Positions 7,921 through 36,754 of a stretch of DNA of 64,000 bases are shown piece after piece. Position numbers and translations under genes: made by a program. How positions within the stretch are numbered: position 1 is the first letter of the stretch; every line of letters starts with the position of its first letter. The notes beneath the pieces were generated by a model that made no database searches, was not told the origin of the DNA, and saw nothing but the letters and a program-made list of their open reading frames with translations. The DNA comes from Acidobacteriota bacterium (lineage in GTDB: Bacteria; Acidobacteriota; Terriglobia; Terriglobales; Acidobacteriaceae): positions 1,922,001-1,986,000 of the forward strand of contig JACPYL010000010.1 of assembly GCA_016196065.1 (NCBI GenBank), in the 5' to 3' direction.

Positions 7921-7925
7921 GAGAC

Positions 7926-18249: not shown

Positions 18250-18675
18250 CTACGAACGGCCTTGCGGCGGAAATCGTTCTTTGGCGAGCGCCTGGATCTC
18301 CCGCGACCTTTCATAGGCGAAGCGGACAACCTCTTCTGCTTCGCGTGAAAGTTGCAAATCTTGTCTGGTTAACAGGACCTGCAACTTTGTATGCATCAGG
18401 ATGGCAGGCGCGCATAGGTCTCGGTGAAATTTCTCCACAGTTTCGGCCAAGTGCCGAAAATCGCGCTCGCGCTTGTTCTTCTGCCAGAGCAACCAGCCAA
18501 GAGCGACTCCAAAAAAGATGAACAAGGCGCGATAGAAGATCATCGCTGGCTGCGGCTGGAGCATTTCAATCCAGAAACTCGTGTTCTCCATCCGGGCGTG
18601 CATTACCGTGTCGATAGTGCATGCGCCTAAGCCAAACAGGATCCCATAGAAGATTTCTTTGTATTTTTGAAGCAT
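18250..18675 (-). CDS. Two-helix membrane protein with helical cytoplasmic tail
   Basis: A 141-residue protein with two hydrophobic segments (about 8-25 and 42-62). A charged helical tail follows (RHLAETVEKFHRDLCAPAI), superficially like a kinase dimerisation helix but without a kinase domain. ATG 18675 has AGGAG upstream. It lies 50 bases downstream of the copper ATPase, probably on the same transcript. No family was recognised. Confidence 0.6.
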   Translation of the reverse strand: MLQKYKEIFYGILFGLGACTIDTVMHARMENTSFWIEMLQPQPAMIFYRALFIFFGVALGWLLWQKNKRERDFRHLAETVEKFHRDLCAPAILMHTKLQVLLTRQDLQLSREAEEVVRFAYERSREIQALAKERFPPQGRS

Positions 18676-18726: not shown

Positions 18727-21417
18727 TCACAGATGCACGTTTCGCAGTCGCAACGAATTGGTGATCACGGACACTGAGCTGAGACTCATTGCGGCGGCGG
18801 CAAGAATCGGGCTCAACAGGATTCCAAAGAACGGATAGAGCACGCCAGCCGCAATCGGCAAACCCACCGAGTTGTAAATAAACGCGAAAAACAGGTTCTG
18901 GCGAATATTGCGCATGGTGGCCCGGCTCAGCTTGCGGGCGCGTACGATCCCGGCCAGGTCTCCCTTGACGAGAGTGACGCCGCCGCTTTCCATCGCTATG
19001 TCGGTACCGGTTCCCATGGCGATGCCGACGTCAGCCTGCGCCAGGGCGGGCGCGTCGTTGATCCCATCGCCCGCCATCGCAACGATCCGGCCTTCTTTCT
19101 GCAAGCGCTGAACAACCTCGGATTTTTTGTCCGGCAAGACTTCGGCTTCAAACTCTGAGATGCCAAGCTTCCGGGCCACCGCTTCGGCGGTGGCGCGGCT
19201 GTCACCGGTCAGCATGACGATGCGCAGACCCTCGGCCCTGAGATCACGGATCGCCTGTGGTGTGGATGGCTTAATTGGGTCCGCGATGCCGATTATGCCG
19301 GAGAGCCGCCCATCCACGGCGGCAAAGATTACGGTCTGGCCTTTGCGGCGGAGTTCATCGGCCTCTAGCTGCAGTGAACCGAGGCTAAGGCCCAAGCTTT
19401 GAAACAGCTTTTCATTTCCGGCAATCACGGTTTTGCCGTCGACCTTGCCACTGACGCCGCTGCCAGTCAGAGACTGAAATTCCGCAACGCTCGCAAGCGC
19501 AAGACCATTCTCCTTGGCGGCTGCCACGATGGCGGCTCCGAGCGGGTGCTCGCTTCCCTGCTCCAGGCTTGCCACCAGCCTCACCAACTCAGAGTCATTC
19601 TGTCCGGCGACAGGCGCCACCGCTTCGACGCTCGGCTTGCCGGCGGTCAGAGTTCCGGTTTTGTCGACGACCAGCGTATCCACCTTCTCGAAAATTTCCA
19701 GCGCTTCGGCGTTGCGGATGAGAACGCCGGTGTGCGCCCCTCGTCCGGTGCCGACCACGATAGCCATGGGCGTCGCCAGTCCGAGAGCACACGGGCAGGC
19801 GATGATGAGCACCGCCACGGCATTCACCAGCGCGTGCGCCAGACGCGGCTCGGGGCCGAATAGACTCCAGAGAATGAAGGTCAGGACCGCGATTGCGATG
19901 ACAGCGGGCACGAACCACGTGGCTACCCGGTCCGCCACTCGTTGGATCGGGGCCCGGCTGCGTTGCGCCTTGCCTACCATTTGGACGATTTGCGCTAGTA
20001 AGGTCTCACTACCCACACGCTCGGCTCGCATCACGAACGAGCCCGTTCCATTCACTGTTGCGCCAATCACCCGGCTGCCGGCGGCTTTCTCGACCGGCAT
20101 GGATTCACCGGTGATCATCGACTCATCGATGGCACTGGCGCCTTCCAGAACCACACCGTCCACCGGAACTTTCTCGCCCGGACGCACGCGCAGATGGTCT
20201 CCCAGTTTCACTTGATCAAGCGGGATGTCGTGCTCTGCACCGTCACGCAGGATGCGCGCAGTCTTCGGGCTCAGATCGAGCAAGGCACGAATCGCGGCTC
20301 CGGTGCGGGTGCGGGCGCGCAATTCGAGCACCTGTCCCAGAAGGACTAACGTCGTGATGGAAGCCGCTGCCTCAAAGTACACAGCGGGCGTGCCGTTCAT
20401 CTCGCGAAACGATGGCGGAAAAATCCGCGGAAAGATGGTCGCGATCAGGCTGTACCCGTAGGCCACCCCCGTGCCCATCGCGATCAGCGTGAACATGTTG
20501 GTGGAACGGTTGACGATGGATGCCCAGCCTCGCTGGAAGAATGGCCAGCCTCCCCAAAGCACGACTGGCGTCGCCAGGAACAGTTCGATCCACGGCAACC
20601 AGCCGTTGGGAAGTGCGCGCTGGACCGGCATGCCGGGCAACATGTCAGCCATGGCGATGACCAGCAACGGGACGGTTAGCGCGACGCCGCCCCAAAAGCG
20701 CCGCGTCATGTCGCGTAGTTCCGGACTCTCTTCTTCCGCCGCCGCAGTGCGCGGTTCGAGTGCCATGCCGCAGCTCGGGCACGAGCCCGGCCCTGGCCGG
20801 ACGATCTCGGGATGCATCGGGCAGGTGTACTCAATACGGGCGGTCGGTGCGGGCAGCTCGGGTTCAAGTGCCATGCCGCAACTGGGACACGGCCCGGACT
20901 TCGTCTCCCGGACTTCCGGACACATCGGGCAGATGTAGTTGCCGACGGGTGGTTGCGGGGCAGCTTTCGCCGGAGCCGCTGCAATGTGTGCTAACGGCGT
21001 GCCGGGCGCAGCGATCGGACGCGGCGCCAGATATGAGTTCGGGGTGGCGCGGAATTTCTCCAGGCAGTGAGCGCTGCAGAAATAGTACGCCTTGCCAGTG
21101 TGCTCCGATTTATACCGGGCTGTGCCCGGGTTGACATCCATGCCACAAACAGGGTCTTTGGTGTTGGCGTCGCCAGTTACGGAACTCTCGGGACTCGGCA
21201 TTGCCAGCATGGTCAATCCTGCGGACGGAGCCTTTGCGCCGGGGTTGAGATATTTGTCAGGACTGGCTTTGAATTTCTCTTCGCAATGTCCACCGCAGAA
21301 ATAATGGGTCTCCCCGGCGTGAGTGTGTACATGCTTCGCGGTAGCGGGGTTCACGGACATCCCACAGACCGGATCCTTCATGGCCTCGCTCAAATCGGCG
21401 CGATTGGTTGACATCAT
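18727..21417 (-). CDS. copA: Copper-exporting P1B-type ATPase with YHS and heavy-metal-binding N-terminus
   Basis: An 896-residue inner-membrane pump. The N-terminus has two YHS domains ([10 protein letters not shown] at about 15 and [10 protein letters not shown] at about 88), then two heavy-metal-binding modules with paired Cys (CPMCPEV...CPSCGM and CPMHPEI...CPSCGM). No classic HMA GMTCxxC domain is seen. The pump core is complete: [12 protein letters not shown] in the membrane, DKTGTL with the phosphorylated Asp, [10 protein letters not shown], and the late-helix residues YNSVG and MSLSSV that define Cu(I) pumps. ATG 21417 was chosen because GGGGAAAA precedes it; an upstream ATG at 21525 would overlap the neighbour. 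It exports Cu(I) from the cytoplasm using ATP. Confidence 0.93.
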
Positions 21418-21521
21418 TTTTCCCCGATCCGTATGGTTGCACGCGAAAAAGTAGCGTGTCGTTTTTGTCGTCCGTTCCGTAACTCTGGATTGCATCAAGG
21501 CTAAACGGAACAACGCCCGAT

Positions 21522-22481
21522 TCATGATTTCGAGCGAAAAGCCTTGGTCAGCACCGCCAAATCGTAGTCAAAAAGCTGGAAGTAGTCGGTGATTCCCTTT
21601 TCACCTCCCACCGAAGAAGGCAGGACCACCACCTTCGCCCCGGTCTTCCGAGCGATGTTATTCGGTGTCTTTAGCTCAAAGTAGGGCTCCACTAGAATGA
21701 TCCCCACGTTCTGACTCTTCATGAGGTTGACGAGTTCGGATGCATGGTCCCGGCTGGGCGGGATGCCCGGCTGCGGCTCGATTTCGCCGACCGAGACAAG
21801 TTGGAAGTACTTCAGAAAATTGGACCACGACCGGTAATAGGTGACCACTTTGCATCCGCGGTAGGGACGCATTTCGGCGTTCCAGATTTCTTCTGCGTCC
21901 GAGAGCCGCTTGCTGAACACTCGAAAACGATCGTCAAAATAGGAAGCATCACTTGGCCGTAGCTCGCCTAGCTTGTGGGCAAGTGCTTGAGCGATCTTCC
22001 GACCGTTTTCCGGGTCGAGCCAATAATGGGGATTGCCGAAAGGCTGAATGCTTGGCGTGATAGGGCCGGATGGCATGTCGACAATCTCGGCATACTGCGA
22101 AGCGTCGAAATAGCCTGGAGCCCCTGGCTGAATTCGAGCGTTGCCGGACTGGCTGACCAGAGACGGTGTGTGATGGCTCCGCGTCAGCCAGCCGCTCTCC
22201 AGCTCCAGACCAACAATAATCAGGAGATCGGCCTTTCGCAATTTCAGCAGGTAGCTGGGCTTCGCTTGCACGAAGTGCGGGTGCTGATTACCGCGGACCA
22301 GGGATTGCACCTCGGCACGCTCACCCCCGACCTCCGCGGCAAGTGCCGCAAGGTCGGCGGTGGAGGCGAGGACCTTCAATTTGGAAGTGGCCTGCGCGAA
22401 GAGGGGACTTGCTGCCGCGCCGGCGAGCGACAAAGCCAGAAGCAACGTAAACCAAAGATGCCACTCAAGTATTCTTCTCAT
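21522..22481 (-). CDS. Metal ABC transporter substrate-binding protein (ZnuA/TroA-like)
   Basis: A 319-residue exported protein. The signal peptide ends near LFAQA. The cluster A-I pattern shows: [20 protein letters not shown], then NQHPHF (a metal His), [11 protein letters not shown] (second His), a central helix, and [10 protein letters not shown] near the end. There is no long His-rich loop of the ZnuA type. It would bind Zn or Mn in the periplasm, but no cognate permease or ATPase of that family is in the window. ATG 22481 has AGAGGAG upstream. The barrel protein upstream (22605-23897) is probably co-expressed. Confidence 0.82.
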
Positions 22482-22604
22482 GCGCGCTCCTCTTTTTTCC
22501 AACCGCCCCGTGACGATGTCCGTTGCGATGCCAAGTCAAATACCGACTTGCATTCGCAGACGTCGTTGTCTTTGCTGTGCCTTCATTGGAGGCAATCTCC
22601 GTTA

Positions 22605-23897
22605 TCAGAACGGATGAGCCCCGTGCGCTCCGATAGTAAAGAGGACCTGAAGCAAGAGTTCATTTGCGGTTTGCCCTTCAGCATAATGCGTACGGCGGAG
22701 CTGACCACGAATCTGGCTGAACTCGCTCGGCCAATAGGTCAAAACCAAGGAACCGCCACTGTCCTGCTGCAAGGCATTCTGGGCTCGCTCCGACCAATCG
22801 TAGCGACCGCCCGTGAACCACCTTCTCCCCAATTGATACTCGGCCGAGGCGAAGAAACCAAAGGCCCGCTGTGTTGCGGCCACTTGCTCGCGGTTGCTCC
22901 AGACTAGTTCCGTACGAGCTGCGAAGGAGTGTAGCCTGGGACCTCGCACGGGCTTCCAGCGGAGAGTCGCATCCATCGCGTAGAGCTGGGTAATGAAGTT
23001 GCTGCCCAAGTCGTTGTGCCCACGGGTGTAGGACCCTCCCAGTTCAATATTCGTTGACTCCGTCAGATCTCGATAGCCCCTGAGATGGCCGACTACACTG
23101 ACATCCGTTCGGCGGCTGGAATGAAATAGACTGCCAGAGTCTCCCCGGAAGACCTCGCCGGTACCCTCCAAAAAGATCCCCTTCGGCGCAGGCAGGATTC
23201 GGCTGATGGAAATGCCTGTGTCCTTGATGCCCACATCAGCCTCCGTGAGTGAGCCACCCATCAGGTTGAATGCGACCAAAGGCCTGTCGACCCAGGGAAG
23301 GGTGTGATTATGAAAGGTGTTCACCCGTCCGAATGCGGCCCGCATCCTCCCGACTCTGGGAACAAAACCCCAAGGTACCGAAGTGAAAGTGACATAGCCT
23401 TCCTCCACTTCAATGTCGTTCTCCCCGATCGCCAGGAAGAAATCTGCCCGGGCGTACGGATCCACAATGGATTGGAGCGAGATCTCACTTTCCTGCAATG
23501 CGAGTGCGGGAAGCGGATTGATCGAGTTGTGACCCGCCGCCCCCACAAAATTGCCGATGATTCCGATATCAGGATTGAGTGCCTTGGCTGCGGCGCTGGC
23601 ACCGCCGTATACCGGCAGCTGAGTGCTGCTGTCCGCCGGTGTTCCGGGCGGAGGAAGCTGCGGAGCCGGAGGGGCAGCGTTCATGGCAGATTGCGTCGGC
23701 CCTGCGGAGGCGCCCTTGAGAGCTTGTACCTCGGTTTCTAGTGCACGGACGCGCTCTAACAGCGCTTTGACTTCGGCACGTAGGTCATCTGAGCCGGTCT
23801 GCGCTGCGGCGTCCACCGAATGCAGGAAGACCAGCGCTACTGCGAACATGATTACCACTGAGCGCTTCGGGCAAAGGAACCGTCGCGTCACTTTCAT
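22605..23897 (-). CDS. Putative outer-membrane porin linked to metal uptake
   Basis: A 430-residue protein with a signal peptide (near DAAAQT), a periplasmic coiled coil (VKALLERVRALETEVQALK), a Pro-rich linker, and a long barrel-like domain of alternating strands. It ends in TIGAHGAHPF with a terminal Phe, the usual outer-membrane signature. The coiled coil plus barrel resembles oligomeric porins. ATG 23897 has AAGGAAG upstream (GTG 23906 is also possible). Being next to a ZnuA-like protein it may be a metal-responsive porin; that link is inferred. Confidence 0.7.
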   Translation of the reverse strand: MKVTRRFLCPKRSVVIMFAVALVFLHSVDAAAQTGSDDLRAEVKALLERVRALETEVQALKGASAGPTQSAMNAAPPAPQLPPPGTPADSSTQLPVYGGASAAAKALNPDIGIIGNFVGAAGHNSINPLPALALQESEISLQSIVDPYARADFFLAIGENDIEVEEGYVTFTSVPWGFVPRVGRMRAAFGRVNTFHNHTLPWVDRPLVAFNLMGGSLTEADVGIKDTGISISRILPAPKGIFLEGTGEVFRGDSGSLFHSSRRTDVSVVGHLRGYRDLTESTNIELGGSYTRGHNDLGSNFITQLYAMDATLRWKPVRGPRLHSFAARTELVWSNREQVAATQRAFGFFASAEYQLGRRWFTGGRYDWSERAQNALQQDSGGSLVLTYWPSEFSQIRGQLRRTHYAEGQTANELLLQVLFTIGAHGAHPF

Positions 23898-23953
23898 GGT
23901 TTCCACCTTCCTTGGCAGTTGCGGTTAATGTTTGGGAGCCAACCACCCTGCGG

Positions 23954-24565
23954 TTAGGGGCGGCTCTGTGAATCTCTCGAATCACCGTCTTTTTGAAGTG
24001 TGCCCTTGGCTGAACTGCTGAACATCTCGAACCCTTTTGTGATTGCATCGGGGCGCACTACAACGTTGTTGTTCTCCACCGAGAACGGGACGGGGACTGC
24101 AACACAACTCTTGTCGGCGGTCATGCGCTCGTTCCGATCGCCAATGCGCATCGCACTTTGGCATTGTCCACAGATCAGGTTCCCCTCTTTTAAGTGGTGC
24201 TGTTTACGGAACGAATAGCAGGTGGTACAAGAGGCAAATGCCGCTCGAACCACCCCCTTGGAGTCCCGGTTCACAAGCAGTTTGGACCGCTCCGAAGATC
24301 TGATCGGGTAGGTGAAGAAGCGGGTCTGGCCCGGCTGGAGCTGCGCCAGGTCGTATAGGAAATTCTCTCCTGCTTCGAGCACGATCTCGGGTAAATGGTC
24401 TGACGCGGTCGCCTTTCTTTCCTGGGAGATTGCAAACCATGCCGCGGCTCCCCACACCGCCAGCAAAAATCCAGCGATCAATCCCCAGACGCGCCAGCCT
24501 TGGCGGGTGAGTGCCTCTACCCGCTTTCGTCTCCGTCCTAACACGTGATGCCGTGAACGCCACAT
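23954..24565 (-). CDS. DUF2318 membrane-anchored Cys-rich protein (copy A)
   Basis: A 203-residue protein with one membrane helix at about residues 24-46 and a periplasmic domain. The DUF2318 signature is two CxxC pairs, SCTTCYSFR and ICGQCQSAM, split by a His-rich stretch. GGAG lies 8 bases before ATG 24565. In the Campylobacter P19/Ftr1 iron system a DUF2318 protein works with FtsX-type permeases; the same partners are found here at 25984-28583. Its heme or Fe-S nature is not established. Confidence 0.78.
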   Translation of the reverse strand: MWRSRHHVLGRRRKRVEALTRQGWRVWGLIAGFLLAVWGAAAWFAISQERKATASDHLPEIVLEAGENFLYDLAQLQPGQTRFFTYPIRSSERSKLLVNRDSKGVVRAAFASCTTCYSFRKQHHLKEGNLICGQCQSAMRIGDRNERMTADKSCVAVPVPFSVENNNVVVRPDAITKGFEMFSSSAKGTLQKDGDSRDSQSRP

Positions 24566-24697
24566 CTAAGTTCTCCGGAGAGCAGCGACCTGCCCTCGGT
24601 GTCCTTTCTCCAACATCACCAGGGACCCGAATACCGGATCCTTGAATTGCGCCTGGTGCAATCCATTTACGCGCAAATAGGCTTCGACGAGGGCCAC
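24566..24697 (-). CDS. Possible 43-residue protein
   Basis: A short frame from GTG 24697 reading ALVEAYLRVNGLHQAQFKD then PVFGSLVMLEKGHRGQ. It begins just after the upstream gene stops and ends immediately before the DUF2318 start, so it fills an operon gap exactly. No ribosome site at good spacing was seen, so it could be only an open gap. Confidence 0.3.
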   Translation of the reverse strand: MALVEAYLRVNGLHQAQFKDPVFGSLVMLEKGHRGQVAALRRT

Positions 24698-24703
24698 TAC
24701 CGC

Positions 24704-25204
24704 TCACGCCGGCGATGCCTTACGGAAGCTCCATTGGCGTTCGCAGGCTCCGAGCTCTGACAGATGCTCTTTCATTTCCTTGAGGCAGCGCGTTTCACAT
24801 TGGTCTACAGGTTGGTCAAAACCTCGGCGGTGAACAATCTTCACGCTCAGAGTGACATCGGGACGGCTGCCGCGTACTGCCGAATAGCGAAGTGCCTGCT
24901 CATACGGCCCGATCTCGTACATCGAAGGCCGCTCGTCCTTTGGAAGAATCCAATCGGATATGGCATGCAGAGCGGCATAAACATGCCGGCACGCGGGACC
25001 ACCAGGGCCGACGTGATCAATGTCAGGCTCGGGAGTACCAGAAAGCTCCAGTTCAAACCCCACCTGTTGCTGTTTGCCGCCAACCATCAAGGATTCCGGC
25101 CACACTTCCCAGCAGACCTTGTACCGCTTGACGAGATCAACCAAAGTCTGCGATTCATCATTTAGCGAACCGCCGGCCGGCGATTGTTGTTCTGTGTAAA
25201 TCAT
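24704..25204 (-). CDS. Unnamed paralogous family member 1 (cysteine-bearing soluble protein)
   Basis: A 166-residue protein without signal peptide or membrane segment. It shares a full-length pattern with its neighbour (25201-25884): VDLVKRYKVCWEVWPE, a QVGFELELSGT strand, a GxxCxHxYAALHAI helix, PSMYEIGPYEQALRYS and CLKEMKEHL. ATG 25204 overlaps the neighbour's TGA in ATGA, so translation is coupled. The family is unknown to me. Conserved Cys and His hint at metal or redox binding. Confidence 0.65.
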   Translation of the reverse strand: MIYTEQQSPAGGSLNDESQTLVDLVKRYKVCWEVWPESLMVGGKQQQVGFELELSGTPEPDIDHVGPGGPACRHVYAALHAISDWILPKDERPSMYEIGPYEQALRYSAVRGSRPDVTLSVKIVHRRGFDQPVDQCETRCLKEMKEHLSELGACERQWSFRKASPA

Positions 25205-25884
25205 GAAAGCCCCCATCCCTTCTCGATTGCCGCGCCTCTGGCGTTTTCTTGCGGACTCCTAGTTGGCCAAGTCCTTCCTTCTCCTGGGCCCGGCAAGCAA
25301 TGCAAACCTTCCAATAACTTCCACGCATTCAAGTCCGACGAGGCAAACGCCGCACCGGATTGCCCTGGCTCGGGTTCTCTCCGAATCCCCTCACGCCACT
25401 GCTGTGTCCCAAGACTCCATTGGCGTTCGCCGACCCCGAGTTTTAACAAAAGTTCTTTCGTTTCGCGGAGAACGCGCATTTCACACCGACCTACCGCCTG
25501 GTCAAAACCGCTCAGCTGAACGACTTTCACCTTCAGAGCGAGATCGATCTTCACGGTGAGGGTCGCGCTGGAGCCGCTGCCGCGCACTGCCGAGTAGCGG
25601 AGGGCCGCTGCATATGGCCCTATCTGGTACATCGAAGGCTGCGCTTGCTTAGGGAGGACCCACTCGGTCACGGAATGAAGTGCACTGTAGATCAGCTGGC
25701 ACGTTGGACACCCTCGCCCGATGTGCTGTGTTGCCGACTCGTGAGTTCCCGAGAGTTCAAGGTCAAATCCGGCCTGCCTTTCTTGCCCGTCGATCATCAA
25801 ATATTCCCGCCACACTTCCGAGCAGACCGTGTACTGCCTCACAAGATCAACCAAAACCGGCGGTCGTTGTTCGGTGTAAGTCAT
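25201..25884 (-). CDS. Unnamed paralogous family member 2, with extra C-terminal tail
   Basis: A 227-residue protein whose first ~165 residues match member 1 (YTVCSEVWREYLMIDGQ, GFDLELSGTHE, GCPTCQLIYSALHSV, PSMYQIGPYAAALRYS). The last ~60 residues (from GTQQWREGI) have no counterpart and may be read-through of decayed sequence. ATG 25884 has GGGAG upstream and aligns with the start of member 1; an open GTG start at 25968 is less likely. It sits directly after the ABC ATPase gene. The GCPTC pair suggests metal or redox binding. Confidence 0.6.
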   Translation of the reverse strand: MTYTEQRPPVLVDLVRQYTVCSEVWREYLMIDGQERQAGFDLELSGTHESATQHIGRGCPTCQLIYSALHSVTEWVLPKQAQPSMYQIGPYAAALRYSAVRGSGSSATLTVKIDLALKVKVVQLSGFDQAVGRCEMRVLRETKELLLKLGVGERQWSLGTQQWREGIRREPEPGQSGAAFASSDLNAWKLLEGLHCLPGPGEGRTWPTRSPQENARGAAIEKGWGLS

Positions 25885-25983
25885 TACCATCTCCCTCTCA
25901 CCTGGACTCATGTCTGCTTCGAATTCCTCGACGGGAAGTTCTCCTTCGATTTGCCCGATATTGGCCACGAAGCCTTGAGGTCC

Positions 25984-26760
25984 TCATGGGTAAACATCTT
26001 GCTGATCCATCCCCACGAGTTCCACTTCGCTTGGCAACTGGCCCTCTGTTTGTATGGGCTTCGTACCGTCTCGGCGTGACGCACAACAACCCATCAGAGA
26101 ACCATCCCTGATTTCCAGCACCCGGTCGGCCAGGCCAGCGTTGTTCCGGTTGTGTGTAACCATAAAAATCGTCTGCCCCCGGCGATTGAGATCGATGAAG
26201 ACTTCCATGATTTCGCTCCCGGTCTTGCTGTCGAGCGTTCCGGTCGGTTCATCCGCAAGCAGCAGCGGAGGCTGATTGACCAAAGCCCGGGCGATCGCGA
26301 GCCGGCCCTGTTCGCCGCCCGACAGCTGGTTGGGAAGTCGCGAAGCCTTGTTCCCCAGCGACACGCTCTCCAGCACAACCATGGCGCGCTCACGCTTCTC
26401 TCTCGCGGGAACGGGGGAGGTTGTTAGCGGGAGCATTGCGTTCTCCAGAGCAGTGAGATACGGCATCAGGTGATGCTGCTGAAAGACAAAGCCCAAGTAT
26501 TCCATGCGAAAGTCGGCACGGCGCTCGTCAGACAGGCCGTACACATCGATTCCGTCGACCAGGACCTTGCCCGTCGATGGGCGATTCATGGCGCCGATGG
26601 TCGTCAGGAGTGTGCTCTTGCCCGATCCTGAGGGACCCATTAGCGCAATGAACTCGCCTTCCTGGATCTCGACGCTGATGTCGGTGAGTACCTGCACAGT
26701 TGAGTCGAGTTCGGTCTCGTTATAGGTTTTGCTGACGTTTTCTATCGAAATGAATGCCAC
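25984..26760 (-). CDS. ABC transporter ATP-binding protein (MacB/LolD type)
   Basis: A 258-residue ATPase with Walker A GPSGSGKS, Q-loop VFQQHHLMPY, signature LSGGEQGRLAIARAL, Walker B LLLADEPTG and the H-loop in MVTHN. GTG 26760 is preferred since GAGGAGG is 6 bases upstream, whereas ATG 26766 touches it. It pairs with the FtsX-type permease just upstream (5-6 bp away by the nominal frames). This class does mechanotransmission or extrusion, and in the Campylobacter P19 locus supports iron uptake. A Cys pair (GCCAS) near the C-terminus is unusual. Confidence 0.88.
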   Translation of the reverse strand: MAFISIENVSKTYNETELDSTVQVLTDISVEIQEGEFIALMGPSGSGKSTLLTTIGAMNRPSTGKVLVDGIDVYGLSDERRADFRMEYLGFVFQQHHLMPYLTALENAMLPLTTSPVPAREKRERAMVVLESVSLGNKASRLPNQLSGGEQGRLAIARALVNQPPLLLADEPTGTLDSKTGSEIMEVFIDLNRRGQTIFMVTHNRNNAGLADRVLEIRDGSLMGCCASRRDGTKPIQTEGQLPSEVELVGMDQQDVYP

Positions 26761-26771
26761 TTGCATCCTCC

Positions 26772-28010
26772 TCAGATGTAGCGCACTGCCTCGGACGGAT
26801 CGAGCCTTGCTGCCCGAACCGCCGGGTAGATGCTGCTCAGCGTGCCAATCAGCATGGCTCCGAACAATGCCGCGAGCAGCAGGGTTGGGTTCAGCTCACG
26901 CCCAACCCCGGTCTCACTGAAATAGGGAAGGACCACCCAGCTTGCCGCCAGACCTGCCGCCCAGCCAAAGAAGCCCCCGGCAGCGCTGATCGTTGCCACT
27001 TCCAGGATGAGGCCTTTGATGATGTGAGTCCGGCGAAAACCAATTGCTCGCAGCACGCCGATCTCCTTGGTGCGCTCGACGACGGAACCCATCATGGTCG
27101 TAAAGATCATCAAAGCTCCGATGATCAGAACCACAACCGCGACAGCTGCCGAAAAGCGTGAAAGCCGCGCTACCATCTCTGTCCGCGCCTTCACCGCCTG
27201 CTGTACGGCCGAGACCTTGGCGTGGGGAAGTTTGTCGCGAATCTGCCCGACGATGTCCTCGACCGGACAGCCTTTGCACAAAGCGCTGACCTCGATCACA
27301 TTCAGCTGGCCAACCTTGTTCACCAGCTTCTGAACGTGCAGGAGTTCCCCGAAAATCATCCGGTCTTCCGGTCCACCCGTGGCCCCAATCACACCTGCCA
27401 CGCTGTGCGGCTGCCCAGCAATTTGCAGGCTTCCCTTGACGACCTTGAACTGGATTTGTTCTTCCGCGGAGTGGTGCTCGCCCATCTCGGCGCCTTTCTG
27501 AGGAGATTGTTCCGTGGGCTTGACAATCGAGAGCGCCCGCGCCACCTCGTAGCCGACGAGCACGTCTCCTTCCGTCTCCGGGTTTCTTCCCGTGATGCGC
27601 CACCATTGCCTCAGCTTGAGCTCATTCTTGAAGTCGACGCCTGCCAGGAGTACCTGCTGGCCCTCGACTTCCGCTGCGCTCAAGACCTTCGGAGCGATGA
27701 CACTCAGACGTTTGTGATAGGGAATCTGCCGGATCTTCTCGATATCTTCATTGCTCAGCTCATGCTCGTCGAAGGTGACGCCCGGAACAGAGACCCCGCC
27801 ATAGTCCAAGGCCAGGCTGTTCGATTCCGGCACAATCACGATATTCGCCCCGAAGCGGTCCAACTGTGCCCCGATCTCTTCCTGGATGGAGTTGCTCAAA
27901 CTCAACAGCGCTACAATGGTGCCGACGCCAATGGCAATGCCCACGGTCAGGAACATGGCCTTGCCTTTGCGTCGGTTCAGATTGGCGAAAGCCAGCGTGC
28001 TTATTCGCAT
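26772..28010 (-). CDS. ABC transporter permease (FtsX/MacB family)
   Basis: A 412-residue permease with the family layout: one N-terminal helix (about 18-40), a large periplasmic domain, then three C-terminal helices (about 290-400). RKGKAMFLTVGIAIGVGTIV and IGVLRAIGFRRTHI are typical motifs. A CKGCPVED motif in the periplasmic domain is notable, as a possible metal or redox site. GGGGGA lies before ATG 28010. It stands between a DUF2318 gene and its ATPase and is likely one operon with both. Confidence 0.87.
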   Translation of the reverse strand: MRISTLAFANLNRRKGKAMFLTVGIAIGVGTIVALLSLSNSIQEEIGAQLDRFGANIVIVPESNSLALDYGGVSVPGVTFDEHELSNEDIEKIRQIPYHKRLSVIAPKVLSAAEVEGQQVLLAGVDFKNELKLRQWWRITGRNPETEGDVLVGYEVARALSIVKPTEQSPQKGAEMGEHHSAEEQIQFKVVKGSLQIAGQPHSVAGVIGATGGPEDRMIFGELLHVQKLVNKVGQLNVIEVSALCKGCPVEDIVGQIRDKLPHAKVSAVQQAVKARTEMVARLSRFSAAVAVVVLIIGALMIFTTMMGSVVERTKEIGVLRAIGFRRTHIIKGLILEVATISAAGGFFGWAAGLAASWVVLPYFSETGVGRELNPTLLLAALFGAMLIGTLSSIYPAVRAARLDPSEAVRYI

Positions 28011-28034
28011 AAGTCCCCCAAGCCTCTTGTTCGG

Positions 28035-28583
28035 TTAGAACAATTCGGCACGGGCCTCCAACTCGCTAGTGGCGATCAGCAGCTTGTCTCCCTGAATCGT
28101 TCGCGGGATCCCGTCCGGATTGCAGCCTCCTGTGACCTCGTTGACCAAAGCGGACGGAAAGTGTTTGCGGCACTTGTTGCAGACCATGTCGTTGCCCTGT
28201 TGGTGATAACCCATCTTTTCCCGAAAGCAAACGACGCAGGCGTCGGCTGCGGCCCGGTACACACCATCGGAACTCTTGATCACGAAGAAGCGAACGGTCT
28301 TCTGGTTCGACGCCTTGTATTCGTAGAACTTTGGGTCGCCGGTGCTGACTTCGGTGAGTGGGATCTGGATCTGGCCAGACGATGAGTCGCCTGCCGGAAC
28401 CGGTTTCACTGCGGTGACCGCGCTCGATTTATTCGTGCCAGCAAACGCCAGGTAGATGAACGCTAGAACCACGAGTGTGCCGAGTACGCCAAGTATGTGA
28501 TTGGGCTTGATTCGCGGCCCAGCGTGGCCGTGTGCAAATCGTTCTCTCTTTTCTGTGCGTCTGTCGTTGGATCTATGAGTCAT
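28035..28583 (-). CDS. DUF2318 membrane-anchored Cys-rich protein (copy B)
   Basis: A 182-residue protein with one membrane helix at about 30-48 and a periplasmic DUF2318 domain. Motifs include KFYEYKASNQKTVRFFVIKS, then CVVCFREK and VCNKCRKHF as the two CxxC pairs, and GGCNPDGIP. GGGAGAA lies before ATG 28583. It is only about 20-30% alike to copy A by eye, so they are old duplicates or separate acquisitions. Its position just upstream of the permease mirrors the P19-type iron loci. Confidence 0.8.
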   Translation of the reverse strand: MTHRSNDRRTEKRERFAHGHAGPRIKPNHILGVLGTLVVLAFIYLAFAGTNKSSAVTAVKPVPAGDSSSGQIQIPLTEVSTGDPKFYEYKASNQKTVRFFVIKSSDGVYRAAADACVVCFREKMGYHQQGNDMVCNKCRKHFPSALVNEVTGGCNPDGIPRTIQGDKLLIATSELEARAELF

Positions 28584-28698: not shown

Positions 28699-29544
28699 TT
28701 AGTTCTCCATTTCGGCTCGCGTGTAAACCACCGCACGACCTGCAGATTGCCCCATAGCCGGTGTGAGGTCTATTCCCTTGCCTGCCAGGAAGCCAATCGC
28801 GTTCAGCACCGCAGGCACATAGCTGCGTGTTTCAAGAGGCAGCATGCCCGCGCGGGCAATCGAACTGAAGTCACGCGTCGAGGTACGGTCGACCGCACGC
28901 TGGACGGTGTCCTCGCCTGCGTTATAGGCCGCCAAAGCCAGAGGCCAGTTGCCGAACTGGGTATGTAGGTCACGCAAATAACGCGCCGCCGCACGAGTTG
29001 ATTTATAAGGATCGAGTCGCTCGTCCAGAGCGGCTGTCACGACCAGGCCGTAGCGACGTGCGGTAACCGGCATGAATTGCCAGAGACCGCGCGCCCCTTT
29101 GGGAGATAGAGCGGTGCTTTGCCCACCGCTTTCCACCAAGACAACCGCCGCCATTTGCTGAGGAACTCCTTCTTCTCTCAGAATCGGTTCCAGCACCGGC
29201 CGTAGCCCTTGCACTCGTTGGACTGCCTTCTGTAATTGAATGTTCTGTCCTGTCTTTCCTTCTGGGCGTAGTGCCGAAACGAACTCAGGGTCTGAACTTA
29301 GCGACGCCTCGAGCTGCGGGCGCACTGCTTCGGTTGGGCGCTGAGCGCTGGCAAGGAGGTCGGTTGCCGTGACGCTCATCACCTGGTGAAAAGTCAAAAA
29401 GGCTTCGTCAACCGAAGCGGCTGATGTCCGGGAAACGGATTCCTGCGCCCAGCCCCATGCGGATGTGAGGAGCAGGAAGATAGCGGCGCCAGCCAACCTC
29501 TTCAATAGCGCAGGGCAGGCAACAGCAGAACACGGCTTAGGCAT
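28699..29544 (-). CDS. Lytic transglycosylase (SLT domain, GH23)
   Basis: A 281-residue exported protein. The signal peptide lies at about 10-32. A helical region leads to an SLT domain with the catalytic Glu in [20 protein letters not shown], then [10 protein letters not shown] and [10 protein letters not shown]. It cleaves peptidoglycan glycan strands to anhydromuropeptides, acting in the periplasm. GGAG lies 6 bases before ATG 29544, which overlaps the end of cusA, so it is co-translated with the efflux system. A role opening the cell wall for the trans-envelope pump is plausible. Confidence 0.85.
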
Positions 29545-32500
29545 TGGTTTCTCCACTCGCCAACGCCGGTTGTGCCTTCAGCCCGGGCTTCACCTCGAAG
29601 TTCCACTTCCAGATGGCAAAGATGGGTGGATAAACCACAAGTTCCATCAAGAAGGAGATCAAGATTCCGCCCACGAGCGGCGCCGCAATACGCTTCATCA
29701 CGTCGGCTCCGCTTCCCACGGACCACAGGATCGGCAGCAGAGCAAATAGCATGCACGCCACAGTCATGATCTTGGGGCGCAGCCGCTTGACCGCACCCTG
29801 CACAATGGCCTCGCGCAAATCATCCCAGTTCCGCATCAGCCCTTTCTTTTGCGCGTCATGGTAGGCGATGTCCAAATAGAGCAACATAAACACCGCTGTC
29901 TCGGCGTCCACACCGAGCAACGCGATCAAGCCCACCCAAACGGCAATGCTCATGTTGTATCCGAGCAGGTACAGCAGCCAGATGGCTCCAATCGCGGAGA
30001 ACGGAACTGCCAGGAGAATGATGAAAGTCTTCACGATCGAGCCGGTGTTGAAGTAGAGCAGCAGGAACACGATGAAGAGAGTGATCGGGATCACGATTTT
30101 GAGCCGCTCCCGGACGCGCTGCATGAACTCGTACTGTCCGCTCCAGACGAGCTGGTAGCCCGCTGGAAGCTTCACATTCGCCAGAACTGCTTTCTTGGCA
30201 TCTTGTACGTAACCTCCGATATCTCGCCCAGACACATCCACATACACATATCCGCTCAGCCGGCCATTTTCGTCCCGGATCATGCTGGGACCGGTGAGAG
30301 TACGGATGTCAGCCAGTTGGGTCAGCGGGACCTGGGTGCCATCCGGCGTGGCAACCAGAACACGCTGCATGGCGCTAAGATCACTGCGGTAGTCGCGCAG
30401 GTAGCGAACGTTGACCGGATATCGTTCGCGCCCTTCTACGGTGGTGGTCACGTTTTCGCCGCCGATTGCCGACATGAGCACGTCTTCGGCATCGCCAACG
30501 GTGATTCCGTAACGGGCAAGCTGGTCCCGGTTCAGATCAAAGTCCAGGAAATACCCACCTGCTGTACGCTCTGCGAAAATGCTGGTGGTTCCCGGTATGC
30601 CCTTCAGCGCCATCTCGATGTTTTCCCCAATCTCCTGGATCTTGCCTAGATCGGAGCCGAGAATCTTGATGCCGAGAGGAGTTCGGACGCCGGTCGTAAG
30701 CATGTCGTTGCGGGCCTTGATCGGCATGGTCCAAGCGTTCGAGATACCGGGGAACTGCATGGCTTCGTTTAGGCCGCCCGTTCCGTAAATGAGTTCCTGA
30801 GTGTTTTTGTGATCCGGCCACGCGCGCCGCAAGGCCTTCTGCGTCCACTCTGGTGCCCAGCTTGAATACCAGCGCTTCTTCTTGGGCCATTCCGTCTGGG
30901 ATTTGAGGACCACCACTGTCTCCATCATGGAGAAAGGAGCCGGGTCGGTCGCGGTCTCGGCCCGTCCAGCCTTTCCAAATACTCGGTCTACCTCTGGGAA
31001 GCTCCGGAGAACTTTGTCTTGCATTTGGAGAATCCGGCTGGCTTCGGTAATCGACATGCCCGGCAGCGTCGTGGGCATGTAGAGGAGAACACCTTCATCG
31101 AGTGGAGGCATGAACTCAGACCCCAGACGGAAATACACTGGGATGGTGACCGCCATCGCGATGATTGCAGCCGCGATCGTCTTCCACCTGTGCTCGAGCA
31201 CAAACTCGATGACGGGGTGATAAATCTTCATCAACGGCCGGCTGATGGGGTGGTTTTCCTCGTTGTGGATCTCGCCCACCACTATCGCGTTGGTCACTTT
31301 TGCCAGCCAAGCCGGCCGAAACTCGAATTTCTTCAGCCGGATGAATAGCAGCAAGATAGGAGGCACCAGGGTAACCGCCAGAATTGCGGCGATTGCCATG
31401 GAAAAATTCTTGGTGAAAGCCAGGGGCTTAAAGAGCCGCCCTTCTTGCGCTTCCAAGGTGAATACCGGCAGAAAAGAAACCGCGATTACCAGCAAGGCAA
31501 AGAAACTTGGGCCTCCGACTTCCTTGATGGCGCCGATGATTACGTCTTTGTAGTCGCCAGGTCGTCCTTCAGCTTGCCAGTGTTCCAGCTTTTTGTGGGT
31601 TTGTTCCACCACCACGATTGATGCGTCGACCATGGCACCAATGGCAATCGCCAGCCCCCCCAGCGACATGATGTTCGCAGTCAAACCCAAAGCATGCATG
31701 GGAATAAACGAGAATAGGAGAGCCAGAGGAATCGTGATGATGGGGACCATGGCACTTGGAAGGTGCCAGAGGAATATCACGATGACCAAGCTCACAATGA
31801 TAAGTTCCTCGATTAACGTGCCCTTCAGGTTCTCGATGGAGCGATCGATCAGCTCAGAACGGTCGTAAGTGGGAACAATCTCCAGACCTGGCGGCAGACT
31901 AACCTTCATCTCCTCCAGCTTCGCCTTCACCCGTTCAATGACCTTCTGGGCGTTCTCGCCGAATCTCATAATTACTATCGCCCCGACTACCTCTCCCTCT
32001 CCGTCCAGTTCCGCGACTCCCCGACGCAACTCCGGGCCGAGGGTAACTGTCGCCAAGTCCCGCACGAGCACGGGCGTTCCGGTAGCCGGGTTGTATCCCA
32101 CTACCGATTTCTCGATGTCTTTGAGCGACTTGATATAGCCCCGGCCTCGGACCATGTATTCCCTGCCGGTGAATTCGACCAGCCGTGCGCCGATATCGTT
32201 GTTGCTGCCCTTTATGGCGTCCACAACTTTGTTGATCGGGATCTTGTAACCCAAGAGCTTGTTGGGATCGACGTTAACCTGGTATTGGCGGACGAAGCCG
32301 CCCAAAGGCGCCACTTCAGCCACGCCCGGAACGGCCTGCAGGGCATAGCGCAAATACCAGTCCTGAAAAGTCTTCATGTCCGCCAGGCTGTATTTACCCG
32401 TCTTGTCGACGAGCGCATACTCGTAGATCCAACCAACGGAGGTGTAGTCTTTCGCCAACTCCGTCTGTACGCCTTGCGGCAGTCGCGGCAGAATGGCGCT

Positions 32501-32839
32501 AAGGTACTCCAGGGTGCGGGAACGCGCCCAATAGAGGTCGGTGCCCTCCTCGAAGATCACATACACATACGAGTAACCGAAGTCAGAGAAGCCACGGATG
32601 TCTTTCACTTTCGGCAGTCCCAGCAGCGAGGAAACGATGGGATAGGTGACTTGGTCCTCCATGATGTCGGGGCTGCGGTCCCATCTGCTGTAGATGATGA
32701 CCTGCGTGTCCGACAAATCGGGGATCGCATCCAGTTTGGTGTTGCTCAGGGAATACCACCCGATCATCGCTGCTACGCCGGTGAAGAGGAAGACCAGGAA
32801 CTTATTACGAGCACAGGCATCTATGATTCGATTTATCAT
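29537..32839 (-). CDS. cusA: Heavy-metal efflux RND pump (CusA/CzcA family)
   Basis: An 1100-residue pump, normal for the family. There are twelve membrane segments in the RND pattern, with N-terminal [17 protein letters not shown], the [15 protein letters not shown] segment, and the charged helix-4 region [18 protein letters not shown]. The periplasmic domain has Met-rich spots ([23 protein letters not shown]) suited to Cu(I)/Ag(I). ATG 32839 overlaps the preceding gene's TGA in ATGA. It works with the CusB-like and CusC-like proteins upstream in one operon. Confidence 0.92.
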
Positions 32840-33327
32840 TGGGCACTGACTCCCTGGAGTAGCTTCTGCAATTGCATAACTGTCCCACCGTTCTCTCGTA
32901 CAAATGCTTCTGCATCGTCTCGATGAGCAAAGGCGTAGGTCCCGGGAAAACAACGGTCGTAAGTCATCTGTTGCATGTGCTTACTCTGATCGACCATCGT
33001 TTCGTCGTGAGCGCAGAGCACCTTGCGGCTGCCGTCGACGAAGTAGGCCTGTTCGGGGTTGAGGCTGTTGCCCGAGACGTAATCGGTGACTGCGATCAGA
33101 CGTAACGGCTTCTTCTCCTGGTAGGCCTCACTGACCGCGCAACGCGCGCAGCAAACCGTGCGGCGCCGCCCGTCGATTTCAGCGATTACCTTGGTATTCG
33201 CGTGAATCGAACGGTGGCAGAATCCACAAAACGTTTCTTCGCGGTTGGCCATCAAGCGATAACCGGCGGCTACAAGCCCTGCCAGCACTACTAATACCGC
33301 TGTCGCAATCCATGCGCGTTTCGCCAT
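32836..33327 (-). CDS. NosL-like copper-binding protein within the cus operon
   Basis: A 163-residue membrane-anchored protein: one helix (about 5-25), then FCGFCHRSI, a CCARCAV cluster, VTDYVSGN and AYFVDGS, and a C-terminal AFAHRDDAEAFVRENGG. That order matches the NosL family, in which such proteins deliver Cu(I) to nitrous oxide reductase. Here it lies between cusB and cusA with ATGA overlap to cusA, and no nos genes are present. A copper chaperone for the efflux pump, playing the part of CusF, is inferred. AAGGAG supports ATG 33327. Confidence 0.7.
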   Translation of the reverse strand: MAKRAWIATAVLVVLAGLVAAGYRLMANREETFCGFCHRSIHANTKVIAEIDGRRRTVCCARCAVSEAYQEKKPLRLIAVTDYVSGNSLNPEQAYFVDGSRKVLCAHDETMVDQSKHMQQMTYDRCFPGTYAFAHRDDAEAFVRENGGTVMQLQKLLQGVSAQ

Positions 33328-33345
33328 TCTCATTCTCCTTGTCGC

Positions 33346-34830
33346 TTAGTGCTTCATTCCGCCCATGGCACTTTTCAGCCGGCTCTCCGAGTCGATCAGG
33401 AAATTGCCGGATGTGACGATGGTTTCCCCCGCTCGCAGGCCGGAGAGCACTGCTATCTTGTCGTCCAGTTTCACGCCGATTTTGATCTCGCGCGGCTCGA
33501 AGTATCCGTCTGGCAGGGCGACGAAGACGGTCTGCCGCTCGCCGGAATCGAGCACTGCGCTCTGCGGCACAACCACCTGGGTGCCGTAGTCGATCTTCAG
33601 ATTGACCTCTGAGTACATGTCAGGTTTCAAATCGAAATTAGGATTTGCAAATTCAAGCCGTACTTTGACCGTGCGGGTTTGAGGATCCAACGTGGGAAGA
33701 ATGTAGGTCACACGTCCGTTGTATTTCTTGCCCGGATAGTAGCTCAGCTCCATTTGCGCCATCTGACCTACGTGGACGTACGGCACTTCGTATTCGTAAA
33801 TCTGGGCGTTGGCCCAAATAGTGGAAAGATCGGCGATCACATAGAGATCCATGTCTGGCGTAATCGCAGTTTGGGGAAATGCTTTGCGATCCATCACGAA
33901 GCCCGTGACTGGGGAATAGAAAGTTAGCGTTCGGGTGATTTTCCCAGTCTCATCGAGTTCCTTGATTTGCTGGTCGCTGATGTCCCACAGGCGGAGGCGC
34001 TCGCGGGTGGAACTCAACAGCGACTCTGCCCCCCGAGAGGCCTCCGGAAAGCTTGAATCCCCGAGGTACTGTTTGCCACGACGAGCTATCAGGTATTCCT
34101 GCTCGGTAGCGACGAGATCCGGACTGTAGACCGTAAATAGTGGATCTCCCTTCTTGACCAGCTTCCCTACGTAATCGACATATACCTGCTCAATCCAGCC
34201 GTTGACCTTCACGTGGACGTGTGCCAACTTGGTTTCGTCAGCGGTCAACTGCGCCACGGCGCGAACCGTGCGGAACAACGACTCACGCTGCACGGTCGCC
34301 GTCTGGACACCGATCAGCTGCTGCTTTCCTTGGGACAGTTTCACGGTGCCAACCGGCATGTTCGCCGTCGCTTCTTCCTCATCGGCGTACCTGGGAACCA
34401 GCGGCATACCGTCGGTAGCGGTGCCCGGCTTGGACGACTGGAAAGTCGGGTTCATGGCGTCGTAGTAATAGAGAACCTTGCGCTCTCCCGGCGGGGTGGA
34501 CTTATCTGTCCCTGGCGTGCTGGCCATGCCCGGCATGTTGGCCATGCTGCCGCTACTGGGCGAAGCATTGCTCTCGTCTGCATATTTCGGCACCAGGTCC
34601 ATCCCGTCCGGCGCCTTGCCTGGCTTGTCATAGTGGTTCTTCGAGTTCATGGCGTCGTAGTAGTAGAGAACCGTGCGTTCCGGAAGTGTGCTCGTCTGCT
34701 TGTCGACAGTTCGGGACGCCATCGCCTTGTCGTCCTGGAGCCAAGTGCCGATGCGACCACGAAACAGAATGCCGAAAACGATTACCACCGCCAGGATCAG
34801 TGCGAAATACGTTGCAAACTTGCGAATCAT
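33346..34830 (-). CDS. cusB: RND efflux periplasmic adaptor (CusB-like) with two heavy-metal-binding motifs
   Basis: A 494-residue adaptor. After an N-terminal helix there are two copies of a heavy-metal-binding motif, each beginning VLYYYDAMN and ending PGM.LVP(K/R)YADE style (GKAPDGMDLVPKYADE and GTATDGMPLVPRYADE). The lipoyl/barrel-sandwich and beta-barrel domains follow (VKVNGWIEQVYVDYVGKLV, KPDMYSEVNLKI). It bridges the inner-membrane pump and the outer-membrane channel. AAGGAG is 9 bases before ATG 34830; ATG 34848 overlaps the upstream stop and is the alternative. Confidence 0.9.
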   Translation of the reverse strand: MIRKFATYFALILAVVIVFGILFRGRIGTWLQDDKAMASRTVDKQTSTLPERTVLYYYDAMNSKNHYDKPGKAPDGMDLVPKYADESNASPSSGSMANMPGMASTPGTDKSTPPGERKVLYYYDAMNPTFQSSKPGTATDGMPLVPRYADEEEATANMPVGTVKLSQGKQQLIGVQTATVQRESLFRTVRAVAQLTADETKLAHVHVKVNGWIEQVYVDYVGKLVKKGDPLFTVYSPDLVATEQEYLIARRGKQYLGDSSFPEASRGAESLLSSTRERLRLWDISDQQIKELDETGKITRTLTFYSPVTGFVMDRKAFPQTAITPDMDLYVIADLSTIWANAQIYEYEVPYVHVGQMAQMELSYYPGKKYNGRVTYILPTLDPQTRTVKVRLEFANPNFDLKPDMYSEVNLKIDYGTQVVVPQSAVLDSGERQTVFVALPDGYFEPREIKIGVKLDDKIAVLSGLRAGETIVTSGNFLIDSESRLKSAMGGMKH

Positions 34831-34844
34831 GGTTCTTTGCTCCT

Positions 34845-36274: not shown

Positions 36275-36754
36275 CTATTTACCCATGCTCGAAAACGTCG
36301 TCGCTGCCCGCGCAACAGGCGCTAGCGGTTGCGAGTTAGCTGCCTTCAGCTCGGCCTTTCTGGCCATGTCTTCGTGCAACCCAGCCAGTTTTGTTGCCTT
36401 TTCTGCCTGCTCGGCGTCTGCCTGGGCCCAATGGCGGCAGTGGCTAACGCCTTGGCCAAACGCAAACCCGTGCTTCGCCTCCAGGGCTGGGAAGGGTGGG
36501 TTGTTTGCGTAAGTCGCGGCCAAATCGGAATGTTGTTTTGAGCTGGCGTTTAATTGCTGGGCCTCTTGCCGATAGTAGGCCGCGATGCTCAGGTGCTCTG
36601 CTGGTGTTTTGGCCCTTTTCAGCAGCACCTTCAGCTCCTTCTTGCTCAGGGTTGGATTCGTCTCTGCGGCTGCGGAATAAGCAGGGGCAAGGGACAACAG
36701 CGTCAGGAAGACGATCATTTGAACGACTAGCGAATTGAGGCGCGCGGTCTTCAT
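36275..36754 (-). CDS. Exported helical-hairpin protein with HC motif (copy 2, intact)
   Basis: A 159-residue exported protein: the signal peptide ends near AYSAAAE. The family segment NPTLSKKELKVLLKRAKT is followed by a helix with AAYYRQEAQQL, a YANNPP turn, then SHCRHW with the conserved HC and a last helix LAGLHEDMARKAEL. GGGAGG precedes ATG 36754. It is the best-preserved copy of the family. It lies upstream of cusC, separated by the hairpin. The single Cys-His pair could bind metal or form an intermolecular disulfide. Confidence 0.75.
   Translation of the reverse strand: MKTARLNSLVVQMIVFLTLLSLAPAYSAAAETNPTLSKKELKVLLKRAKTPAEHLSIAAYYRQEAQQLNASSKQHSDLAATYANNPPFPALEAKHGFAFGQGVSHCRHWAQADAEQAEKATKLAGLHEDMARKAELKAANSQPLAPVARAATTFSSMGK

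Follow-up and report, generated by a model that had tools for sequence, protein, structure and literature searches.

DUF2318 is reported to be linked to FTR1 clusters in nearly all cases (PMC6083913). For the Campylobacter iron system, PMC10783030 calls the function of FetA and FetBCD unknown and proposes that these proteins pass reducing power on to FetMP. PMC8238504 deals with flavin-associated P19/FTR1 clusters, not with FTR1-free modules. Here we describe a module of six genes in a stretch of 64,000 nucleotides ("the window") from an Acidobacteriota bacterium (contig JACPYL010000010.1, positions 1,922,001 to 1,986,000). The module occupies positions 23954-28583 of the window on the minus strand and combines two DUF2318 genes with genes for an FtsX-type permease and an ATP-binding cassette (ABC) ATPase. 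With a probability of about one half, we assign it to a family of DUF2318-FtsX-ATPase triads that is separate and independent of FTR1, and whose products would form an ATP-driven thiol/redox module, here serving copper. This reading builds on the anatomy of the module, the separate clade formed by its permease and relatives, the invariant cysteines, the absence of FTR1 from most carrier genomes and the location in a copper run.

With the C. jejuni FetMP-FetABCDEF (P19/FTR1) system the module shares a DUF2318 protein with CxxC pairs, an FtsX-type permease and an ATPase, and in both the likely role is redox support of a metal transporter. However, the module has neither FTR1 nor P19 and lies in copper-efflux surroundings. 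It has one permease with a CxxCP motif instead of the FetB/FetC pair, and a single-anchor DUF2318 protein instead of the FetA protein with eight transmembrane segments or an FTR1 fusion. The last cysteine spacing in DUF2318 is 15 or 16 in the module and 14 in the FTR1/P19-type system. Sequence comparison therefore supports the view that the module is related to the Fet accessory part, yet would be a separate system and not a member of the FTR1/P19 group.

Anatomy of the module and predicted structures

All six genes are encoded on the minus strand. The first encodes FtrDa (28035-28583), a membrane-anchored DUF2318 protein of 182 aa (PF10080, E = 1.1e-27), whose invariant cysteines C116, C119, C135, C138 and C154 are spaced CxxC-x15-CxxC-x15-C; this five-cysteine region (residues 116-154) corresponds to 28122-28238, as computed from the gene start. 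Next come the single FtsX/MacB-type permease of 412 aa (26772-28010; PF02687, 3.3e-22; PF12704, 4e-10), with a CKGCP motif at residues 245-249 (27264-27278), after the last strand of the periplasmic domain, and the LolD/MacB-like ABC ATPase (25984-26766; PF00005, 2.7e-34). Two copies of an unnamed Cys-bearing family, CysA (25201-25968) and CysB (24704-25216), precede FtrDb (23954-24565), a second, divergent DUF2318 protein of 203 aa (PF10080, 5e-11), which retains the cysteine pattern and matches the FtrDa sequence with E = 2e-11. The PF10080 scores of 96.5 bits for FtrDa and 43.1 bits for FtrDb compare with a curated cut-off of 26.3. A preliminary description, made from the letters of the sequence, had proposed the cluster of two DUF2318 proteins, FtsX permease and ATPase, and Pfam matches for all four proteins confirm it.

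The same description had noted two copies of an unnamed family, and this also held: CysA and CysB are 51% identical over 169 columns, and neither matched a Pfam family (E up to 1) or an NCBIfam family (E up to 0.1). Relatives were found in 6 of 297 Acidobacteriota genomes. One such relative is placed between CusA and a NosL-like gene at locus L136, another in the copper island of locus L023. A third, distant copy (28% identity) is present in the window at 39957-40382, also on the minus strand. Because the nearest relative of the module, locus L004, has no Cys-family genes in the interval from the ATPase to the second DUF2318 gene, we regard the pair, judging from gene content, as accessory to the module. 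Cys-family proteins are probably cytoplasmic accessories of copper islands.

A DUF2318 profile found no credible match among the sequences of the Protein Data Bank (best E 0.13). The FtrDa model (predicted local distance difference test, pLDDT, 87.9) contains a Rieske-like domain at residues 66-182. Foldseek returned 5bok as the best match (E = 4.1e-4), the single one under 0.001 among the matches listed. In the VIA comparison, the best match was 1vm9 (Z 9.9, root mean square deviation 2.9 over 101 residues), and the 50 listed matches were, judging by their titles, Rieske proteins or relatives of their fold. Rieske proteins hold their cluster through CxH and CxxH ligand motifs. FtrDa shares with them the predicted fold and the two-loop ligand arrangement, including a predicted hairpin between the CxxC pairs, but has CxxC-x15-CxxC in place of CxH...CxxH, plus a fifth invariant cysteine. 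C116/C119, C135/C138 and C154 were invariant in 49 aligned DUF2318 sequences. The DUF2318 domain is thus predicted to adopt a Rieske-like fold, with four site cysteines at the positions of the Rieske Cys/His ligands, and DUF2318 would therefore be expected to contain a metal site, Fe-S or another, or else two dithiols.

The permease model (pLDDT 85.6, from 49 sequences) predicts the type VII (MacB/LolE/FtsX) ABC fold. Its best match was 5xu1_M (Z 24.9, 359 residues, root mean square deviation 6.8), and LolE and MacB were also matched, with Z from 24.9 to about 20. The module shares permease fold and ATPase family with the MacB, LolCDE and YknZ-type systems. Its own features are the invariant periplasmic CxxCP motif and the obligate-looking DUF2318 partner; permease and ATPase are encoded by separate genes, and no dedicated adaptor was recognised.

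Two classes of DUF2318-FtsX loci

The preliminary description had asked for a survey of DUF2318-FtsX pairs lacking FTR1, and such a survey found 57 of these loci. Altogether 104 stretches were sorted, into 57 of the FTR1-free type, 30 of the FTR1 type, 15 with DUF2318 but without FtsX, and two others, one with the permease only (L007) and one with nothing (L031). The sample comprised 39 of the 56 listed PF10080 places in Acidobacteriota (each of the 17 omitted has an open frame of at least 393 aa) and 60 of the 69 in Desulfobacterota, to which the genome G301 was added as L008 (8 were left out). L009 and L010, unrelated weak FtsX matches, had been removed before counting. Sorting relied on profiles built from sequences that were first sorted by BLAST to the proteins of the window and of the genome's own FTR1 locus. 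FTR1 presence, FtsX number, CxxCP and cysteine spacing were not sorting criteria.

The two classes differed in all four of these respects. A single FtsX was found in 57 of 57 FTR1-free loci; of the 30 FTR1-type loci, 29 had two. FTR1 was encoded within the examined stretch in none of the 57 and in 29 of the 30. The exceptions among FTR1-type loci are L073, without FTR1 in the stretch, and L106, with a single FtsX. All 53 full-length FTR1-free-type permeases (57 minus four that were too short) carry C-x-x-C-P, compared with 0 of 59 FTR1-type permeases. The significance that the preliminary description had attached to the CKGCP motif was borne out in this form; CxGCP was rejected as the signature, for a glycine occupies the third place in only 20 of the 53, and CxxCP was retained.

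The last DUF2318 cysteine spacing was 15 or 16 in all 57 FTR1-free loci and 14 in all 30 FTR1-type loci. The first spacing, between the CxxC pairs, was 15 in 50 of the FTR1-free loci and 13 in the other 7; all FTR1-type loci had 13 or 14. Because of these seven loci, x15 versus x13 was rejected as a class divider, and only the last spacing separates the classes fully. The FTR1-free-type permeases were monophyletic (support 0.993) when the tree was rooted in the FTR1-type permeases, six further FtsX proteins serving as the outgroup. Chloroflexota sequences had not been used for the class rules; seven of eight profile hits in that phylum nevertheless showed one FtsX, CxxCP and a nearby DUF2318 open reading frame (ORF), though two of the seven (L131 and L132) scored between the classes. 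The eighth was of FTR1 type, with two FtsX and no CxxCP.

Two further observations concern individual loci. At L047 (9502-10350), a DUF2318 gene like that of plasmid pPRO1 stands beside a short ORF with permease and ATPase fragments, and it looks as if this locus has either a broken permease or an assembly error. Directly 5' of six of the 30 FTR1-type loci (L089, L091-L094 and L096), we recognised a Fur-like gene by eye. Reading in the same way, we saw no Fur-like ORF among the listed upstream ORFs of the FTR1-free-type loci.

The FTR1-free DUF2318-FtsX module spans at least three bacterial phyla. Seven of 297 Acidobacteriota genomes contained a match to the permease (E <= 1e-40), and a permease profile had hits in 8 of 151 genomes from the phylum of an Anaerolinea metagenome-assembled genome (Chloroflexota). 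DUF2318 was matched in 53 of the 297 Acidobacteriota genomes and in 62 of 247 from the phylum of a Desulfocapsaceae metagenome-assembled genome (Desulfobacterota). None of 349 Pseudomonadota genomes (the Stutzerimonas phylum) gave a permease match, a weak negative with generally five candidates scored per genome. The phylum names for the groups around three genomes (G301, G302 and G303) are in part our assumption.

In the window's own genome, DUF2318 occurs in three places, two in the window and one as an FTR1-DUF2318 fusion. The fusion gene lies on the same contig, about 227 kb from the module, and is accompanied by two FtsX permeases and an ATPase of its own. P19 (PF10634) had no match anywhere in this genome at E <= 0.001. 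The earlier statement that FTR1 and P19 are missing thus stands for the cluster and, in the case of P19, for the genome, but fails for FTR1 genome-wide. FTR1 was also searched for in 19 genomes, with completeness stated for all but seven; 12 carry the module, G301 being the only one covered among Desulfobacterota carriers. Two of the 12 (the window's own and that of L004) gave an FTR1 match and 10 gave none. Together with the separate clade, the single permease and the CxxCP motif, this agrees with the earlier proposal that the system is distinct from P19/FTR1.

Copper genes around the module and its relatives

The module is part of a same-strand run that extends from 36754 down to 18250 (minus strand), with a largest gap of 138 bases; 115 and 47 bases separate the module from its nearest neighbours in the run. 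We infer that the run is one operon. It starts with an exported protein of 159 aa (36275-36754), whose family is unassigned and which is the first gene after a putative leader ORF discussed below. There follow a CusC-type outer-membrane efflux protein (34845-36155; PF02321), a CusB-type adaptor (33346-34848; HlyD_D23, 1.4e-76, and HMBD), a NosL-like protein (32836-33333), a CusA-type resistance-nodulation-division (RND) pump (29537-32953) and, directly 5' of FtrDa, a lytic transglycosylase (28699-29556; SLT, PF01464). On the other side of the module lie genes for an exported protein of 433 aa (22605-23906), porin-like by eye and with no Pfam family over its cut-off, a ZnuA-type metal-binding protein (21522-22502) and a P1B-type ATPase with YHS and HMBD domains (18727-21525). 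The CPC, YN and MSxSS motifs of this ATPase are presumably of the copper type. The final gene encodes a membrane protein of 141 aa (18250-18675). Pfam scanning, limited to the run, found no thioredoxin or FMN-binding protein among the run proteins scanned. Elsewhere in the window (6502-7929, minus strand), a VKOR domain is fused to SPW repeats; VKOR domains are associated with thiol oxidation.

The best solved match of the RND pump was E. coli CusA (2.9e-301 versus 8.6e-139 for the zinc pump ZneA). The three Cu/Ag-binding methionines, which we take to be residues 573, 623 and 672 of CusA, are retained in the window pump, as counted by hand on the alignment. The CusCBA, NosL and CopA genes that flank the module, and that it shares with copper-silver efflux islands, were not linked to it in the preliminary description. 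We know of no classical Cus operon with a DUF2318-FtsX-ATPase triad. Because the module lies inside a copper-efflux cluster, its probable task is copper handling in the envelope of the cell, and since the surroundings point to copper/silver efflux and nothing found points to iron, copper is the more likely metal here. Of the copper/iron reductive trafficking suggested earlier, the redox part is compatible with the Rieske-like model and the copper part with the surroundings; for iron, nothing was found.

The same triad is present in a copper-type island of the Pelobacter propionicus plasmid pPRO1. On one side it is flanked by genes for a metal-sensitive regulator, a heavy-metal P-ATPase and an HMA protein; TolC, adaptor and CusA/CzcA genes flank it on the other. 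In order to compare loci, we counted as a copper neighbour any CusA relative of at least 40% identity or P1B-ATPase relative of at least 33% within 8 kb. Copper neighbours were found at 20 of 57 FTR1-free, 2 of 30 FTR1-type and 3 of 15 DUF2318-only loci (p = 0.004 for FTR1-free versus FTR1-type), it being understood that relatives scored as CusA may move other metals and that the methionines were checked for the window pump only. Where at least 15 kb were available, the counts were 15 of 36 FTR1-free versus 1 of 27 FTR1-type loci (p = 0.0009). Within Acidobacteriota, 7 of 10 FTR1-free loci compared with 2 of 25 FTR1-type loci (p = 0.0005), and 6 of 9 FTR1-free loci remained without the near-duplicate L004 (p = 0.0014). 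DUF2318 genes without a matching FtsX stand beside CusCBA at L032 (10115-10666, also with CopA) and L052 (9722-10186), and in copper islands DUF2318 may be active even where the ABC components are missing.

A candidate copper-sensing leader ORF of 127 aa (36895-37278, minus strand) begins the region, 140 bases 5' of the first gene of the run. It has an export signal (as judged by a hydrophobicity score), a Cys/His/Met-rich middle and a proline-containing tail ending in CTFLI (PGGPPQAALCTFLI), and is masked in a simple gene call by an ORF on the opposite strand. It matched no Pfam family at E <= 0.1 and not DUF2946 (PF11162). In CutF and CruR, a cysteine motif and a proline-containing C-terminus are required if copper is to control the gene that follows (PMC9973294, PMC9426467). 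The window ORF shares with CutF, CruR and CopL the export signal, the cysteine motif, the proline-containing C-terminal tail and the position directly 5' of copper genes. It differs in the tail, which is PP...[S/T]xL[I/C] and not RAPP, and in the lack of a DUF2946 match. By these features it resembles copper-sensing leaders and is a candidate for this role.

A leader relative with an identical tail occupies the equivalent position at L004, and a small exported Cys-rich ORF stands directly 5' of DUF2318 in many Desulfobacterota loci. The combination of tail pattern, export-like start and at least five cysteines was found in 18 of 4,444 ORFs of 90-250 aa. Fifteen of these lie 28-214 bases 5' of an FTR1-free-type DUF2318 gene (15 of 57 loci), and the remaining three are all in the window. 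The enrichment is partly circular because the tail patterns were written after viewing part of the sequences, ORF 36895-37278 not being among those used. Ten leader-type ORFs scanned, window ORFs among them, had no Pfam family, and L053 likewise had none. Leader-type ORF 1329-1781 of the window (minus) lies 140 bases 5' of a multicopper oxidase gene (1-1188, minus). A further one (52510-52923, plus) follows a sigma-54 two-component pair (49779-52311, plus) that is 39% and 50% identical to the pair beside the module in pPRO1; 3' of this ORF are cytochrome c, Rieske and cytochrome b genes. Other partners 5' of DUF2318 were HMA-domain proteins (L037, L041, L104, L110) and, as a recurrent neighbour, SurA-like proteins that have either a zinc ribbon or a Cys-rich tail (L051, L056, L074, L076, L102, L111, L117), the calls resting on Pfam for L037, L051, L056 and L104 and on sequence likeness for the rest. 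Counting any of copper genes, leaders, HMA or SurA-type neighbours, 41 of the 57 FTR1-free loci show a metal sign.

Alternative explanations and a possible mechanism

Several observations weigh against a copper-serving, FTR1-independent family. At L130 in Chloroflexota, an FTR1 gene (12435-13283) lies about 1 kb from an FTR1-free-type module, the only such case seen, and an FTR1 partnership is therefore possible in some loci; the window's own genome and that of L004 both contain FTR1. In Desulfobacterota, the difference in copper neighbours is not significant (13 of 47 versus 0 of 5, p = 0.31), and a divergent subgroup of this phylum (L074-L077, L112, L117) has neighbours that look like ordinary metabolic genes. 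No CusA or CopA relative was present within 8 kb at 37 of the 57 FTR1-free loci, 21 of the 57 having less than 15 kb available. The figure of 41 of 57 was reached only with leader, HMA and SurA/CC-tail categories chosen after looking, and 16 of the 57 loci still show no counted metal sign. The Rieske match was obtained with a predicted model. A copper-only reading of the whole family is weakened by the Desulfobacterota loci without copper genes.

It is unlikely, in our assessment, that the module duplicates the accessory genes of Fet iron uptake, as an auxiliary or a relic, and works with an FTR1 encoded elsewhere. The triad proteins are homologues of those linked to FTR1, an FTR1-DUF2318 locus is present in the genome, and FTR1 adjoins a module of this type at L130. 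However, the FTR1 locus already has two permeases and an ATPase of its own, 10 of the 12 carrier genomes gave no FTR1 match, and P19 was not found in the genome. FTR1 and P19 genes elsewhere in the genome, co-regulated with the cluster, had been named beforehand as what would argue against a separate system; of the two genes, FTR1 turned up, with its own ABC genes, and P19 did not. A separate clade, an invariant CxxCP and a different cysteine spacing are unlike a decaying copy, and descent of the module by decay of the genome's own FTR1 locus was rejected on the grounds of its own clade and invariant motifs. A simple iron-uptake operon was rejected as well, the cluster having neither FTR1 nor P19.

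The neighbouring lytic transglycosylase could instead be the effector of an FtsEX-like control of peptidoglycan hydrolysis that lets CusCBA pass the wall. An SLT gene directly 5' of FtrDa is found in the window, at L004 and, as a partial match, at L023; an M23 peptidase gene is directly 3' of the ATPase in pPRO1, with an M23 relative in L047, and the structural matches of the permease include FtsX from FtsEX-EnvC. We consider this improbable, given that homologues of SLT or of the pPRO1 M23 protein lie within 8 kb at only 4 of 57 loci (the window, L004, L023 and L037), so that a peptidoglycan-hydrolase neighbour was rejected as a general feature, and that the invariant CxxCP and DUF2318 cysteines would be left unexplained. 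Similar doubt applies to a MacB-like exporter of a metallophore or peptide that would work together with the adaptor and outer-membrane protein encoded nearby, with DUF2318 as a substrate-binding accessory. In both sequence and fold, the closest solved relatives are MacB and LolE, and adaptor and outer-membrane efflux protein genes are present in the run. Yet the sole adaptor seen there is CusB-type with HMBD and belongs with CusA, and many FTR1-free loci show no adaptor or outer-membrane efflux protein relative nearby. The fused MacB and dedicated MacA of MacAB-TolC were not found, permease and ATPase being separate ORFs, unlike MacB. Least probable, we think, is that the module handles a different soft metal, for instance zinc, with the help of the ZnuA-type protein. 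That protein is encoded between the module and CopA, and no ZnuB or ZnuC was noticed beside it; no ZnuA relative was reported at the other loci annotated with a ZnuA query, and the window RND pump is far closer to CusA than to ZneA.

For the copper-serving thiol/redox module, we tentatively propose a mechanism that transfers the Fet-cluster relay proposal to copper. In the MacB/LolE/FtsX class, ATP is coupled to movements on the periplasmic side. In the triad, ATP hydrolysis may drive dithiol or metal exchange between the CxxCP of the permease and the cysteines of DUF2318. Periplasmic copper could thereby be kept as Cu(I), or carrier thiols be kept reduced, and Cu(I) or reduced thiols be handed to the CusCBA pump, while the triad itself would move no copper across the inner membrane. 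Expression might be copper-controlled via leader ORF 36895-37278. In a bolder version, which we hold to be less likely than not, the triad would be a copper-handling machine of a kind not described before: an ABC motor without cargo of its own that uses ATP for a dithiol relay from CxxCP to an all-Cys Rieske-fold protein and so reduces periplasmic copper or its carriers for export. Campylobacter FetABCD would in that case represent an iron-adapted branch. In the open-access literature searched, no paper found names a copper-linked FtsX/DUF2318 module, and the passages found in copper-stress papers on Oleidesulfovibrio and Corynebacterium treat FtsX only as a cell-division protein.

The large FTR1-free sister family, marked by an invariant permease dithiol, indicates that the ABC/DUF2318 engine is separable from the iron channel, and its role becomes testable alone, without that channel. 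The Rieske-like prediction offers a concrete biochemical test for any DUF2318 protein. If this engine does serve copper, an ATP-driven thiol/redox step would be added to copper efflux, and one engine would serve two metals.

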